Of a stretch of 64,000 bases of DNA, positions 28,333 through 55,364 are shown in pieces. Within the stretch, counting starts at the first letter, position 1. Each line of letters starts with the position of its first letter. Source of the DNA: Leptospiraceae bacterium. GTDB taxonomy: Bacteria; Spirochaetota; Leptospiria; Turneriellales; Turneriellaceae. The position numbers were made by a program, and so were the translations under genes. The notes under the pieces were generated by a model. It searched no databases and was not told where the DNA came from. It saw only the letters and a list, made by a program, of their open reading frames with translations. The stretch lies in the NCBI GenBank assembly GCA_025055765.1, contig JANWWS010000012.1, forward strand, positions 62,001-126,000, given 5' to 3'.

Positions 28333-28857
28333 ATGGATTTTTTGCCACTAAGCCATTACTCAAATAAATTTTGGTTAATGCACAAGGGGGATGTCAACGA
28401 AGAAATGGCGCTTATGCACCGCCGCATGGCTGAGAGGGGCTACAAGTCCACACCCCAGCGCGATGAAATCGCCCGCTGGGTATTCCAGACCCACGACCAT
28501 TTCACCGTAGAGGATATACTTGAAGACTTCCGTAAAGACGGAAAGAAGATTTCTCAAGCTACCTGCTATCGGGTCATCCAAATGCTCTTACAACTAAATT
28601 TACTCATTGAGCACGATTTTGGGCGAGGGGTGCGCTTTTATGAACACACACCCGGCCACCCCCACCATGACCACATCATATGCAACGAATGCGGCCAGAT
28701 ATTTGAATTTCAAAGCGAGGAGTTAGAAAACCTCAAAGAAAGCATCTGCCAGAAAAATGGTTTTTCTATGACACGGCATAACCTCAGTATCTATGCCAAT
28801 TGTAACCGCTGTACGCCGGAAGAAAAAGCCGAGAAGGCAAAAAAACGCCGCTATTGA
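28333..28857 (+). CDS. Fur-family metalloregulator
   Basis: The N-terminal winged helix (YKSTPQRDEIARWVF, ISQATCYRVIQMLLQLNL) and metal domain HHDHIICNECGQIFEF with CxxC, followed by a second CxxC (NCNRC), are those of Fur/Zur/PerR. The class (iron, zinc or peroxide) cannot be fixed from sequence. The first ATG gives an extra about 25-residue N-terminus; the ATG at 28408 (MALMHRRMAERG), preceded by GAAGAA, would give a normal-length protein. It is a candidate regulator for the Fur/Zur-like palindrome at 50533-50554. Confidence 0.9.
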   Translation: MDFLPLSHYSNKFWLMHKGDVNEEMALMHRRMAERGYKSTPQRDEIARWVFQTHDHFTVEDILEDFRKDGKKISQATCYRVIQMLLQLNLLIEHDFGRGVRFYEHTPGHPHHDHIICNECGQIFEFQSEELENLKESICQKNGFSMTRHNLSIYANCNRCTPEEKAEKAKKRRY

Positions 28858-50466: not shown

Positions 50467-50532
50467 AGTGAATTGTAAAAAACTTAAAGCCCCATGTCAA
50501 TTACAAGAATGTTTCTAATCACCTATTGTTGC

Positions 50533-50554
50533 TATTGATAATGCATTATCAATA
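50533..50554. promoter_or_regulatory. Perfect 22-bp palindrome, Fur/Zur-type operator candidate
   Basis: The core ATTGATAATGCATTATCAAT plus one matching base pair on each side is a perfect 22-bp palindrome. The half-site TGATAAT is that of Fur-family boxes (TGATAAT-n-ATTATCA), with a 2-nt instead of 1-nt centre. It overlaps a plausible promoter and precedes the metal-uptake operon by 68 nt. A further overlapping TCAAT-aatg-ATTGA dyad (50549-50562) could accept a second dimer. Confidence 0.7.
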
Positions 50555-50560
50555 ATGATT

Positions 50561-50574
50561 GACGCCACAGCGTC
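50561..50574. repeat. GACGC dyad in metal-operon leader
   Basis: GACGC-CACA-GCGTC is a perfect 5-bp inverted repeat directly behind the 22-bp palindrome. As RNA it could form a small hairpin at the start of the leader; it might also be part of the operator. Significance uncertain. Confidence 0.35.
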
Positions 50575-50621
50575 TGACAAAATAATTACCAAGAACTTAG
50601 AGGATAATGGGAGGATATATT

Positions 50622-51182
50622 ATGAAGAAGAGCTTATTCCCCCTTTTGTACTTCGTTGTTATTAGCTGCAAGCATGAACATGAGGAAGAAAAATACAGCT
50701 GCCAAATTGACGGTACTAGCCTGCACATAGCTGCGGACTTCCAGAAAGCTCCCTGCGATAATCTACCACCTGAAGGTATAAAAATCAAGATCACAGGTCT
50801 TACTGTGCCTCCGGGGCAAGATTTGCGGCTGCGCTTTTATACTAACCCCAATGTGCCCTCCACGAATCTCAACGACGCAGGTGGCCTTGAACTAAAGTTT
50901 ACCGACAGCCAGGTTGGGGCAGACTTTGCCCAAGGTGAGCCTGCCACATCCAATGCCCATACGGGTGCCAACTCTTTTTGCATAGAAATCCATGATATAA
51001 CAAAGGAAAAGCATACCCAAATTTTCTCGGGAGATGAATGCCAAGGCAATTTAACGCTTAACCATAGTGAGAGCACAGCTCCTACTCCAGCGACTCGTGC
51101 GGTGTCGTACCGGCGCCCAGATAGCGGAGTCATCGTAGGCCAAATTAAAATAGAAAAAGAAAAACATGGCCACGAGCACTAA
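50622..51182 (+). CDS. His-rich putative metal-binding lipoprotein
   Basis: I use the ATG at 50622, with GGGAGGA about 8 bases upstream; an earlier ATG adds five residues. The 186-aa protein has a signal ending LYFVVISC (lipidated Cys16), immediately followed by KHEHEEEKYSC, and it ends in KHGHEH. These His/Glu clusters at both ends suggest divalent-metal binding. The core (CQIDGTSLHIAADFQKAPC; ELKFTDSQVGADFAQGE) is beta-rich, with paired cysteines. Family not recognised. First gene of the operon with an OM barrel and ZnuA/C/B homologues; likely a metal trap or relay at the OM or periplasm. Confidence 0.75.
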   Translation: MKKSLFPLLYFVVISCKHEHEEEKYSCQIDGTSLHIAADFQKAPCDNLPPEGIKIKITGLTVPPGQDLRLRFYTNPNVPSTNLNDAGGLELKFTDSQVGADFAQGEPATSNAHTGANSFCIEIHDITKEKHTQIFSGDECQGNLTLNHSESTAPTPATRAVSYRRPDSGVIVGQIKIEKEKHGHEH

Positions 51183-51191
51183 TGTGGGGCC

Positions 51192-52412
51192 ATGAGAAAA
51201 ACCCTAATTTGGCTTTTTCTATTCAGTTCGGCATCCCTAATAGCTCAAACAGAGCTTGATGAAATAGAAAAAGAATTACGAGAAGCAGAAAAAAGAGGGG
51301 AGGAGCAAAAGAGTGCTATGGGCTCAACCCCCCGTCTTGTGCCGGTTCGCCAGAGAACCGGCTTTATTGTAGACCGTGCCTCAATCCCCGATATTTTCAC
51401 TGTGGCAGACATAGTACACGAACAAGATGCCTATGGCATTAGGCGGGAGACAAAAAATAACATTGATGTTCGAGAAGTCGAGTTTGGCTTTAGCGGCTTT
51501 GTTGACTGGCTTGCTCACGGCAATGCTCTTTTCGCCTTGCACAGAGATGATCACCAAGACCTCCAAGGGCGCTACATTTTTGACATTCACGAGCTTTTCT
51601 TGGATTTCTACAATTTACCATACAATTTGCGTGCTCGCGTGGGCAAAATGTTTCTCGACGCAGGTAGACTAAATTCCATCCATCGCCATGATTGGTTCTT
51701 CACGAATGCTCCCCTCATCCATAAAGCTGTGATGAATGACCTCTTTGTCGGAGAAGGAGCTGCGGATACGGGTATAGAAATAGCCTACCTCATGCCATGG
51801 GATTTTTTTCAAGAGTTAAAAATAGGCATTTTTCGTGGCCGTATCTTTGGCCATGGACACACCGACGGGATAGAAAAAGCAGCACCACTTTGGCTCGGTC
51901 GGCTCAAACAGTTTTTTCCCCTCGTGGGCAATTTAGGCACAGAATTTGGGTTTACTTACCTACGTTATCAGCCCACCATCTCTCCTCACGATGTCGATTA
52001 TACCTATGGCAGCGATATAACCTTTCGTTGGTTTCATTCTCGTATTTACCGCTTTATTTTCACAACGGAATTTTGGTATAAGGAACTCTATCGCGCGCCT
52101 ACCCCCATAATGGCTGGCTATCGAGATAGCTTATGGGGATTTTACACTTTCTTTGACTTTATCTTTATGCAAAACTATGGGGTGGGCTATCGTTTTGACT
52201 ACTACGAAGATTACTACCAAGTTTATGCACAAAGACGTCATTATTTGGGAAACACCTTTTGGTTTACCTACCGACCTTCTGAGTTTGCCTATTACAGACT
52301 TACTCTAGAAGCCAGGCATTATCACGGCTATGACGGCATTTATGGCATAAATTACCTTGTCTTTTTGCAAGGTACCTATATCTTGGGATTTCATTTGCCC
52401 CATCGTTACTAG
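51192..52412 (+). CDS. Outer-membrane barrel, metal-uptake-associated (candidate zinc porin)
   Basis: A 406-aa protein: signal peptide (LIWLFLFSSASLIAQ), a short coiled coil (ELDEIEKELREAEKRGEEQ) as in some trimeric or LbtU-like porins, then about 320 residues of aromatic beta-strands ending in a C-terminal tyrosine. Strands and loops are rich in His and Asp (LHRDDHQDLQGRYIFDIHEL; GRIFGHGHTDG). It lacks a plug domain, so it is not a TonB receptor. Located between the His-rich lipoprotein and the ZnuA-type gene, it is a candidate passage for the metal; this is inference from position. Confidence 0.75.
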   Translation: MRKTLIWLFLFSSASLIAQTELDEIEKELREAEKRGEEQKSAMGSTPRLVPVRQRTGFIVDRASIPDIFTVADIVHEQDAYGIRRETKNNIDVREVEFGFSGFVDWLAHGNALFALHRDDHQDLQGRYIFDIHELFLDFYNLPYNLRARVGKMFLDAGRLNSIHRHDWFFTNAPLIHKAVMNDLFVGEGAADTGIEIAYLMPWDFFQELKIGIFRGRIFGHGHTDGIEKAAPLWLGRLKQFFPLVGNLGTEFGFTYLRYQPTISPHDVDYTYGSDITFRWFHSRIYRFIFTTEFWYKELYRAPTPIMAGYRDSLWGFYTFFDFIFMQNYGVGYRFDYYEDYYQVYAQRRHYLGNTFWFTYRPSEFAYYRLTLEARHYHGYDGIYGINYLVFLQGTYILGFHLPHRY

Positions 52413-52420
52413 GAGGTGTA

Positions 52421-53338
52421 ATGAAAAAAGCAAGCGTTTGTTTCTGTTTTCTCTATTTTTTTCTATTATGCCCCCTTTTTAGTCGGCTTTATGTAGTAAC
52501 GACCACCACCGATCTTGCCTCCATTGCCAAGGAAGTGGGTCGAGATCTCGTAGAGGTAGAATCTCTCACTTTTGGCAACACGGATCTCCACTTTGTACCA
52601 GCCCAGCCTAACTTTATTGTAAAAGTAAACAAAGCTGATGTCTTTATCGAGGTTGGCCTTGAGCTCGAATCCTCTTGGACGTCTCTTGTACTAAACCAAG
52701 CACGAAACAACAAAGTTATGGTAGGACAAATAGGCTACTGCGTAGCCTGGCAAGGGGTTAATGTTCTCTTGCCCCCTCAACAAGAAATCAACCGTTCTAT
52801 GGGAGATCTCCATCCGCAGGGAAATCCCCACTATTGGCCTGACCCTGTAAATGGAATCATTATCTCCCGCAATATACGCGATACTTACATACGTGTAGAC
52901 CCCAAAAACGAGAAAAAATACCAACAATACCAAGAAGAATTTGAAAAAAAAGTAAAAGAAGTCCTCTTTGAAAATTTAAAACTCCTCAAACCTTTTGCCG
53001 GAACGAGGGTGGTAGGGTACCACCAGGAATTTGACTATCTCATTAATCGGTACAAGATGGTGGTTGTCGACAACATCGAAGAAAAACCTGGGGTTTTGCC
53101 AGGGCCGGCAAGACTTAAAGCCATGAAAGATATTATTCTACGCAATGGCGTCAAGCTAATTCTTGTCTCCCCTTGGACAAATATTGCCCTTGCCCGCAAA
53201 GTCTCACAAGACAGCGGAGTTCCTCTCCTAATTTTACCCATCCAAACCAAAAGCGCCGAAAATACCGAAACCTATCTCGATATGCTACGCACGACAGCAC
53301 AAATGCTCTATGAAGCCCTTAGCAAGAAAGAAAAATAA
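52421..53338 (+). CDS. Zinc/manganese ABC transporter binding protein (ZnuA/TroA-like)
   Basis: A 305-aa cluster A-I binding protein. After the signal segment it has TTTDLASIAKEVG, the ligand histidines H57 (DLHFVP), H137 (GNPHYWPDP) and H201 (GYHQEFDYL), and a C-terminal acidic region for the fourth ligand. It lacks the long His-rich loop of E. coli ZnuA; the His-rich lipoprotein upstream may take that role. A good ribosome site (AGGAGG) precedes the ATG. The ATPase start lies within its 3' end. Confidence 0.9.
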   Translation: MKKASVCFCFLYFFLLCPLFSRLYVVTTTTDLASIAKEVGRDLVEVESLTFGNTDLHFVPAQPNFIVKVNKADVFIEVGLELESSWTSLVLNQARNNKVMVGQIGYCVAWQGVNVLLPPQQEINRSMGDLHPQGNPHYWPDPVNGIIISRNIRDTYIRVDPKNEKKYQQYQEEFEKKVKEVLFENLKLLKPFAGTRVVGYHQEFDYLINRYKMVVVDNIEEKPGVLPGPARLKAMKDIILRNGVKLILVSPWTNIALARKVSQDSGVPLLILPIQTKSAENTETYLDMLRTTAQMLYEALSKKEK

Positions 53339-53969
53339 ATTCTTAAAATTAAATAATATAAGCTTTGGTTTCCCTGGCAAGATTTTAGCAAAAAATGTCT
53401 TTCTCGAAATTGGAGAGGGAGATTTTATTATCCTGAGTGGACCCAATGGCTCTGGCAAATCAACTCTGGCACGCCTCCTTTTAGGAGTACATAAGCCGCT
53501 TTTAGGAGAGAGAATAGATTTTTTTCAAAAAAAAGCTTATGTCCCGCAAAAGTCAGATATAGACTTAGGTTATCCACTTACTCTCGCAGAGCTTTGGGAA
53601 ACAGCGGCTTACGAGCACTTTTTTGAGTTGCCATTTCAAAGAAAATACAGGGAAATCCTAAATCATGAGATTATAAAAACCCTCGCATTAAAAGAAAAAC
53701 AGCACTTGCCGATCTTTCGCGCAAGCGGCGGGGAATTACAGAGAGCTTTAATTGCTCGCGCTTTAATACGCAAAGCAGATCTTGTAGTCATGGACGAACC
53801 TTTTTCGAATTTAGATAAAAAAGCAAGACGTGAGGTTAGCAAACTCTTATTTCACCTTTGCCAAAAAGAAAAAACCTCTTTTTTTATTATCGACCATCAG
53901 GGTGTGGTGAGGAGCTCGGGCATAAAGTTTTATTATCTCGAAAACGGAATACTTTACCATGATAGCTGA
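53310..53969 (+). CDS. Zinc/manganese ABC transporter ATPase (ZnuC-like)
   Basis: A 219-aa ABC ATPase: Walker A GPNGSGKST, signature ASGGELQRAL, Walker B LVVMDEPFSNLD and the histidine in IIDHQG. Short form typical of metal-type importers. It overlaps the binding-protein gene by 29 nt and the permease gene by 11 nt, a strong sign of co-translation. Powers import across the inner membrane. Confidence 0.92.
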   Translation: MKPLARKKNKFLKLNNISFGFPGKILAKNVFLEIGEGDFIILSGPNGSGKSTLARLLLGVHKPLLGERIDFFQKKAYVPQKSDIDLGYPLTLAELWETAAYEHFFELPFQRKYREILNHEIIKTLALKEKQHLPIFRASGGELQRALIARALIRKADLVVMDEPFSNLDKKARREVSKLLFHLCQKEKTSFFIIDHQGVVRSSGIKFYYLENGILYHDS

Positions 53970-54855
53970 TTTAAGAGAATTTTGGCTCTACCTCAGCACA
54001 CATGGCCAGAGCGTACTTTTGTCTCTACCGTACTTTCTTTTCTTGGCCTACCTTGGGATTTTCCTAGTGCTACGCCGTTCCACCCTTTTTGCTATGGTAC
54101 TAACCCAGGCAGCACAACTGAGTTTTATTTTAGGGGTTGGTTGGCATTTTGCAGGACATACAGATGCCTTTGAATTTATTAACAAACACCGCTATGACCT
54201 CAGTGAAGAATTACAACACCTAGACCTTTATGTCTTTCCTCTTACATTTCTCTTCTTGCTCCCCTTTCTTTATTTGGCAAGCAAAGTAAGTAAAATAAGG
54301 GAAAGCGCCTTGATGCTTACATTTCTTTTTTTTACGGGAATTTTACCAATAGCTAATCGTTTTGTAGGCGGCAGTGAAAAAACCCTGATGTCTTTGTATT
54401 TCAGTGACCTTCTTTACACATCACCCAACCTTTTCTGGCATTATCTCCCTCATATTTTTATAATTACTCTTTTGTTAATTCTCACCTACCCAAGCCACTT
54501 TTTGGCAGCTCTTGACCCTATCGAAGCCCAGCTTTTAGGATTAAAGCCCGAGCTAGCTAATATAGTTTTTTACCTTCTCGTAGGCTTAGGTATTTCCATT
54601 TCAGTTAGAGTTTTAGGCACCTACCTAACTATGGCCGCTCTTCTTTTTGCTCCTCTCTCGGCCTTGCATTTTGCTACCTCGATGCGCAACTTGGTAATCC
54701 TCACTTTACTTATTACTTTTTGCTTTCTTATTGCTGGCTTCTCTTTATCGTTTTTGCTTCCTGCTTATCCCACGGAAGCAGTTTTAATTGTAAGCTTCGC
54801 CCTCTTATCAGCCATGGCCCATCTCGTTGCTCGGCTAAAGCAAAGGATCTCATGA
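53959..54855 (+). CDS. Zinc/manganese ABC transporter permease (ZnuB-like)
   Basis: A 298-aa polytopic ABC-3-type permease with about eight hydrophobic helices. Family-typical segments are VLRRSTLFAMVLTQAAQLSF and ISVRVLGTYLTMAALLFAPL. It forms the membrane channel with the preceding ATPase; the gene overlaps both neighbours (11 nt upstream, 4 nt with pth). Confidence 0.9.
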   Translation: MIADLREFWLYLSTHGQSVLLSLPYFLFLAYLGIFLVLRRSTLFAMVLTQAAQLSFILGVGWHFAGHTDAFEFINKHRYDLSEELQHLDLYVFPLTFLFLLPFLYLASKVSKIRESALMLTFLFFTGILPIANRFVGGSEKTLMSLYFSDLLYTSPNLFWHYLPHIFIITLLLILTYPSHFLAALDPIEAQLLGLKPELANIVFYLLVGLGISISVRVLGTYLTMAALLFAPLSALHFATSMRNLVILTLLITFCFLIAGFSLSFLLPAYPTEAVLIVSFALLSAMAHLVARLKQRIS

Positions 54856-55364
54856 AGCTCATTGTGGGGCTTGGGAATCCCGGAAAAAAATTTAAAAACA
54901 CTCGCCATAACGCCGGCAGAGAAATCACCATGGCCTTATGCCCTTCAAAATTCCAGCCATCCTTGCTATACAAAGCCCTGCTAGCAGAGGCCTTCCTTAA
55001 CGAGGAAAAATACTCCTTTTTACTGCCAGAGACTTATATGAATCTTTCGGGAATTAGTGTGGCTTCTTTTGTGAGAGACCATCCTCTTGCCCCAGAAGAC
55101 ATCCTAGTTATCCACGATGAAATTGATCTCCCCCCTGGTGAGGTACGCTTTAAAAAAGGTGGAGGACATAACGGACACAATGGACTTAAGGACATTATTG
55201 AAAAACTGGGCCACTCTAACTTTTGTCGTTTGCGTATTGGGGTGGGCCGTCCAGCAAGCAAATGGGAAGTAGCCGACTATGTTCTCTCGCCTGTGAATTT
55301 TGCCTGGCCACTTTCTAAAGTAAAAGAAGTTTTACGGCAAAATCACTGGGCTGATTTTTCCTAA
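54852..55364 (+). CDS. pth: Peptidyl-tRNA hydrolase
   Basis: It releases tRNA from stalled peptidyl-tRNA. The true start is the ATG at 54852 (AAAGGATC upstream, ATGA overlap with the permease); longer frames extend into the permease. Motifs are GLGNPGKKFKNTRHNAG (catalytic His19 and Asn9), LPETYMNLSG, IHDEIDLPPGEVRFK and GGGHNGHNGLKDI. 170 aa is slightly short for the family. Placement behind a metal operon would make its expression partly metal-dependent unless it has its own promoter. Confidence 0.93.
   Translation: MKLIVGLGNPGKKFKNTRHNAGREITMALCPSKFQPSLLYKALLAEAFLNEEKYSFLLPETYMNLSGISVASFVRDHPLAPEDILVIHDEIDLPPGEVRFKKGGGHNGHNGLKDIIEKLGHSNFCRLRIGVGRPASKWEVADYVLSPVNFAWPLSKVKEVLRQNHWADFS

Follow-up and report, generated by a model that had tools for sequence, protein, structure and literature searches.

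The DNA analysed here, referred to as the window, is a stretch of 64,000 nucleotides from contig JANWWS010000012.1 of a Leptospiraceae bacterium. It contains a row of five genes encoding a lipoprotein, a predicted outer-membrane beta-barrel, a ZnuA-type solute-binding protein (SBP), an ATP-binding cassette (ABC) ATPase and an ABC-3 permease, and a perfect palindrome stands before the first of them. We suggest that this is probably a zinc importer, controlled by a Zur-type regulator, equipped with its own TonB-independent outer-membrane channel and serving every layer of the envelope. Zinc import by such an ABC system is known, while the outer-membrane half is uncharacterised; the case is stronger for the barrel and the ZnuA and weaker for the His clusters of the lipoprotein.

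The original prediction on this DNA had proposed a self-contained operon for metal uptake with a Fur/Zur-like box in front, and as far as sequence comparison goes this is supported. However, the evidence points to zinc and not to metals in general, given the putative third-ligand histidine of the SBP, the best matches of the importer proteins to AztABC and the Zur boxes found in Vibrio, all described below.

Gene order and the ABC importer

The genes lie on the plus strand in the order lipoprotein (50622-51182, 186 amino acids), barrel (51192-52412, 406 amino acids), ZnuA/AztC-type zinc-binding protein (52421-53338), ZnuC/AztA-type ATPase (53310-53969), ZnuB/AztB-type ABC-3 permease (53959-54855) and peptidyl-tRNA hydrolase, pth (54852-55364), with spacings of +9, +8, -29, -11 and -4 bp. 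As the gaps are so small, or the genes overlap, the whole row, pth included, looks like a single transcript. The overlaps between binding protein, ATPase and permease had been pointed out in the original prediction, which took 50533-55364 as a single metal operon. Five genes of this interval do belong together, but its end takes in pth, a housekeeping gene recognised by Pfam that overlaps the permease gene, is translationally coupled to it and is not part of the uptake system. Elsewhere, among the loci inspected, pth is an operon neighbour only in genome G004.

The lipoprotein was recognised from its lipobox (VISC16) and the alignment of its relatives. The start at ATG 50622, which is preceded by the Shine-Dalgarno sequence GGGAGG, is preferred over the in-frame ATG at 50607. 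The barrel protein has a signal peptide, and the three importer genes were assigned from Pfam and NCBIfam, for the SBP also from an alignment.

A PF01297 SBP, an ABC-3 permease and an ABC ATPase thus occur together in one operon, i.e., a ZnuABC-type system of cluster A-I. The ZnuA matches PF01297 with an E-value of 2.8e-46 (158.6 bits, cut-off 29), the permease PF00950 with 3.1e-12 (47 bits, cut-off 20.1) and the ATPase ABC_tran with 4.6e-18 (66.6 bits, cut-off 25). The best NCBIfam models for SBP, ATPase and permease are AztC, AztA and AztB, all of them zinc families, and the window ZnuA is the sole PF01297 protein in the genome (99.4% complete).

The ZnuA has exactly four histidines, H57, H131, H137 and H201, all at conserved positions, and the His-rich loop is missing, as had been predicted. 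H57, H137 and H201 align with the ligands of Lmb-type SBPs, Lmb being zinc-binding, which would make the third ligand a histidine. In manganese-type SBPs the ligands are His, His, Glu and Asp. Together with general knowledge of the family, a histidine in place of this glutamate argues for zinc over manganese.

A barrel tied to one ZnuA subtype

Conservation of the locus was surveyed in 61 genomes of the phylum, 48 from the same class and 13 from outside it. The barrel is found in 33 of the 48 class genomes and in none of the 13 others, 12 of which have a ZnuA. Within the class, 32 genomes have both barrel and ZnuA, one has only the barrel (at a contig end), three have only ZnuA and 12 have neither; the co-occurrence gives a Fisher p of 8e-8, which is only a guide since the genomes are related. 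At 32 of the 34 barrel places, the gene immediately 3' on the same strand is a ZnuA. The two exceptions are G012, where the contig ends, and G019, where lipoprotein and barrel lie away from znuA. A related lipoprotein, belonging to one superfamily, is located beside the barrel in 26 of the 33 barrel genomes, in a few of them divergently oriented. In G019 (L050 5609-8148, L086) lipoprotein and barrel have been relocated and the ZnuA retains the GDxHxxGNPH motif discussed below; since the pair stays together even there, the two appear to form one unit.

The linkage also extends across phyla. A search with a divergent class member recovered further members of the barrel family in Sulfurovum mangrovi (Campylobacterota) and Vibrio campbellii, in both cases directly 5' of genes for a ZnuA-family protein and an ABC-3 permease; the window barrel itself, used as the query in a plasmid search, gave nothing. 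The linkage to znuA/C/B, which the original prediction had proposed to look for in other Leptospirales, is therefore conserved far beyond that order, through the class and in Sulfurovum and Vibrio.

The barrel-linked SBPs form a subtype. All 32 carry the signature G[DH]xHxxG[NS]PH, whose last residue is the second metal ligand, and none of the 32 has a His-rich loop. Among 19 unlinked ZnuA-family proteins of the class and phylum the signature occurs once, in the G019 copy (Fisher 8e-10 for signature against barrel linkage, using the stricter GNPH pattern). In our view, this matched ZnuA subtype is the strongest sign that barrel and importer may work together. It also bears on the earlier idea that the lipoprotein substitutes for the missing loop, which is not supported: the loop is absent from every barrel-linked ZnuA, including those at loci whose lipoprotein lacks a terminal His cluster, and also at two loci where no lipoprotein was seen, those of Sulfurovum and V. 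campbellii. Judged from these alignments, the missing loop is a trait of the ZnuA subfamily.

As had been predicted, the first two proteins fall outside the named families, neither barrel nor lipoprotein having a Pfam or NCBIfam match at E<=1. When the family profiles of both were run against the PDB, no significant match emerged. The Pfam search found no Plug domain (PF07715) in the window barrel, in line with the original description as plug-less, but the description as His/Asp-rich is true only in a moderate sense (4.2% His, 6.4% Asp). More telling is the conservation: D105, E134, H164, H166, D275, E293, R334, H401 and H404 are invariant or nearly so, with a C-terminal GxHxxHY, and the cross-phylum alignment retains D105, E134, H164, H166, D275, E293, R334 and the terminal GxHxxH[FY]. 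Profile-profile comparison of two barrel alignments, A1 and A5, gave a probability of 100%, the two sets sharing members. Seven of 31 barrel relatives match BBP2 (PF07642) weakly, at best with 3.5e-6, and the window barrel itself does not.

In the lipoprotein, C16 (lipid-bearing), C120, H124, H131 and C140 are invariant across 24 aligned sequences, and C27 and C45 nearly so; the core of the window protein reads C120-x-E122-x-H124...H131...C140. The His clusters predicted at both mature ends are present in the window protein, as CKHEHEEE at the mature N terminus and KHGHEH at the C terminus, but they are confined mainly to this protein and its nearest relatives, a subclade. Because the terminal clusters are clade-specific, the metal site is likely the internal C-x-[ED]-x-H...H...C, flanked by probable disulphides. 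A predicted model (predicted local distance difference test, pLDDT, 60.6) gave galectin/neurexin-like matches to lectin and LNS beta-sandwiches, with a query template-modelling (TM) score of about 0.45, so a beta-sandwich fold may be assigned with low confidence. Two tandem lipoprotein paralogues stand before the barrel at L038 (G012) and L045 (G020).

Several loci have additional genes or unusual DNA near the lipoprotein and barrel genes. Small proteins (about 100-120 amino acids) that look secreted and carry His clusters, a CxxC and a motif of APP/GPP/DPP type at the C terminus are encoded just upstream of these genes at L037 5888-6235, L039 6206-6562, L046 5367-5711, L048 6157-6507 and L061 6850-7155 (strand-oriented), and in Sulfurovum at L071 3842-4198. 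Four that were tested have no Pfam match, and none was seen in the window. Lipoprotein-like genes of a His-rich, repetitive HExxEExH type lie by the operon in two distant genomes (L035 5324-5794 and L062 6660-7208), the L035 protein having no Pfam match. The DNA between the lipoprotein and barrel genes is repeat-rich and partly N-masked in G006 (L042 7533-8066), and the corresponding place in G002 contains GC-rich palindromes. An exosortase/archaeosortase-family gene (L071 7134-7400) adjoins the Sulfurovum barrel-znuA-znuB locus; PEP-CTERM sorting is also a feature of the ZepA zinc system.

The candidate operator and its putative regulator

The palindrome TATTGATAATGCATTATCAATA (50533-50554, 22 bp) is a candidate operator with TGATAAT half-sites and a 2-nt centre. 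Its arms of 11+11 nt are 100% complementary, so the perfect palindrome of the original prediction is confirmed. The 18-bp core is a single copy in the 2.51-Mb genome even when up to three mismatches are allowed, and looser half-site matches with two mismatches occur at control level (10 vs 8). Three other genomes from this family have near-copies of the palindrome at the homologous locus, G012 with one mismatch, G008 with two and G004 with three, so that the candidate operator is shared by four related genomes. No near-copies were found in 200 shuffles and none are expected by chance. In G012 the near-copy is positioned before the second of the two lipoprotein genes.

Other candidates were not retained. 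A shared operator in family f5 was rejected, as nothing rose above the shuffled controls, and matches of 16-17 bp in family f6 were not accepted, being scattered and inconsistent in sequence. A two-mismatch palindrome on another contig (C49:150604) may be a terminator, as it lies just beyond the end of a TonB-receptor-like gene. The palindrome overlaps a sigma-70-like promoter candidate on the plus strand (TTGCTA-16-AATAAT, 50529-50556), and a second candidate runs from TTGACG at 50559 to AATAAT at 50586, just downstream of it. Both are consensus matches only, in a region with 14 such matches against 8.6 expected.

Three Fur-family proteins are encoded in the genome, at the loci C1:33329, C6:90432 and C15:54571. 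One is Zur-like, one Fur-like and one PerR-like (PerRA-like). The best PDB match of the Zur-like paralogue (C1 locus L067) is M. tuberculosis FurB/Zur. Another, at 28333-28857 of the window, is of the three the nearest to classical Fur/Mur, and its gene directly follows one whose product resembles a 3-methyladenine DNA glycosylase. The G003 locus itself includes a Fur-family gene. Just upstream of the V. campbellii barrel lie two 14/15 matches to TGTTATANTATAACA, the consensus of the gammaproteobacterial Zur box, against 0.03 expected in the 12.7 kb. Our best guess from these comparisons is that a Zur-type repressor acts on the candidate operator.

Proposed mechanism, alternatives and related systems

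We suggest the following mechanism. When zinc is scarce, a Zur-type repressor of the Fur family would leave the palindrome and the operon would be transcribed. Zn2+ or a small zinc complex could then cross the outer membrane inwards via the plug-less barrel, whose lumen may be lined or gated by the conserved His, Asp and Glu residues. In or at the periplasm, zinc would be bound by the lipoprotein and by the ZnuA with its GDxHxxGNPH-type signature, and the ATPase/permease pair would pump it into the cell. Such a periplasmic trap would pull zinc down its gradient without energy from TonB. More tentatively, and with the odds rather against it, it can be speculated that the barrel is the first of a widespread family of zinc-selective outer-membrane channels that work without TonB, and that the lipoprotein captures zinc with its C-x-[ED]-x-H...H...C and passes it to the matched ZnuA subtype.

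Several observations weigh against this proposal. Six Plug-domain proteins are encoded elsewhere in the genome, so a TonB-dependent zinc route could also exist. The barrel topology rests on the signal peptide, a C-terminal aromatic residue, amphipathic strands and the weak BBP2 match, and a predicted barrel model from three sequences reached a pLDDT of 31 and was discarded. The NCBIfam scores are far under the equivalog cut-offs, with 123.1 bits of 220 for AztA, 43.7 of 280 for AztB and 99.5 of 350 for AztC. The other class families yielded no copy of the palindrome, and TGATAAT half-sites, which also resemble Fur boxes, do not tell Zur from Fur.

The last point bears on the possibility that the operon imports another first-row metal (Mn, Fe or Ni) and that Fur or a Mur-like protein binds the palindrome, which we consider quite unlikely. 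Cluster A-I SBPs do include Mn and Fe binders, many of the structures matched in the PDB are of Mn/Fe proteins, the window ZnuA shows no obvious counterpart of the canonical fourth, acidic ligand, and the paralogue at 28333-28857 is the one nearest to classical Fur. However, the putative third ligand is His and not Glu, the AztABC models are the best in NCBIfam, the Vibrio locus has Zur boxes, and operators of Fur should be numerous in a genome, yet the palindrome is unique. It is also conceivable, though on balance unlikely, that the barrel serves a zinc complex (zincophore) as its receptor or channel, or is a general porin induced by metal stress, with the lipoprotein acting as a structural partner or surface lid, comparable to SusC/SusD, instead of as a metal binder. 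The lipoprotein stays with the barrel in G019 although the pair has left znuABC, and its low-confidence model resembles a lectin/LNS beta-sandwich. Without a Plug domain, the barrel should not be an active TonB receptor, and its invariant His/Asp/Glu as well as the H124/H131 pair of the lipoprotein favour contact with metal; none of the neighbours read, most of which lacked annotation, was recognised as a gene for metallophore biosynthesis. Finally, lipoprotein and barrel might be unrelated envelope proteins whose position before a zinc ABC operon reflects chance or shared ancestry. In seven barrel genomes no relative of the lipoprotein turned up next to the barrel, and such relatives also exist without a barrel as neighbour, but barrel and ZnuA are adjacent at 32 of the 34 places, in three phyla and with one matching ZnuA subtype, which makes this very improbable.

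The SBP, ATPase and ABC-3 permease belong to the same families as those of ZnuABC and AztABCD (cluster A-I; AztABCD, PMC7463823). The system proposed here differs in that its SBP has GDxHxxG[NS]PH and lacks the His-rich loop, which precedes the second ligand in E. coli-type ZnuA, and in that the operon starts with lipoprotein and barrel. AztD was not found here, lipoprotein and barrel both lying outside the Pfam and NCBIfam families. As proposed for the barrel described here, ZnuD of Neisseria (PMC2895646) and the Caulobacter receptors (PMC4176598) are Zur-regulated outer-membrane barrels for zinc. These receptors are TonB-dependent, whereas the barrel of the window has no Plug and its gene lies inside the znu operon. 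Its conserved His/Asp/Glu residues and its terminal GxHxxH[FY] set it apart, as a family of its own, from the BBP2/OmpL-like putative porins (PF07642). An unusual zinc-binding protein outside the cytoplasm is also a feature of two systems for zinc starvation, ZrgABCDE of Vibrio cholerae (PMC9820375), where ZrgA replaces the SBP, and ZepA of Anabaena (PMC10957091), with its H-x2-9-H-[FY]-H motif and PEP-CTERM; in the passages searched, neither paper describes the barrel. Neither of these ZepA features was seen in the lipoprotein, so this identity was dropped, as were ZrgA and AztD after consideration. The literature also covers the FUR paralogues of Leptospira (PMC8638967). A search of the open literature (zinc, Zur, outer membrane, porin, Leptospira) returned no account of the barrel or the lipoprotein, although its coverage is incomplete and a mention elsewhere is possible.

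The dedicated routes for zinc across the outer membrane are, to the best of our knowledge, TonB-dependent receptors, and other entry is mostly credited to general porins. The analysis provides a context for two families that are blank in Pfam and NCBIfam and names candidate residues in each component, H164/H166/H401/H404 in the barrel, H124/H131 in the lipoprotein and H131 in ZnuA. With tight genetic linkage of the barrel to a single zinc-binding-protein subtype across three phyla, and with Zur boxes in Vibrio, a dedicated non-TonB route becomes directly testable. If the proposal is true, one operon would cover both membranes and carry zinc across the outer membrane by a route other than TonB.

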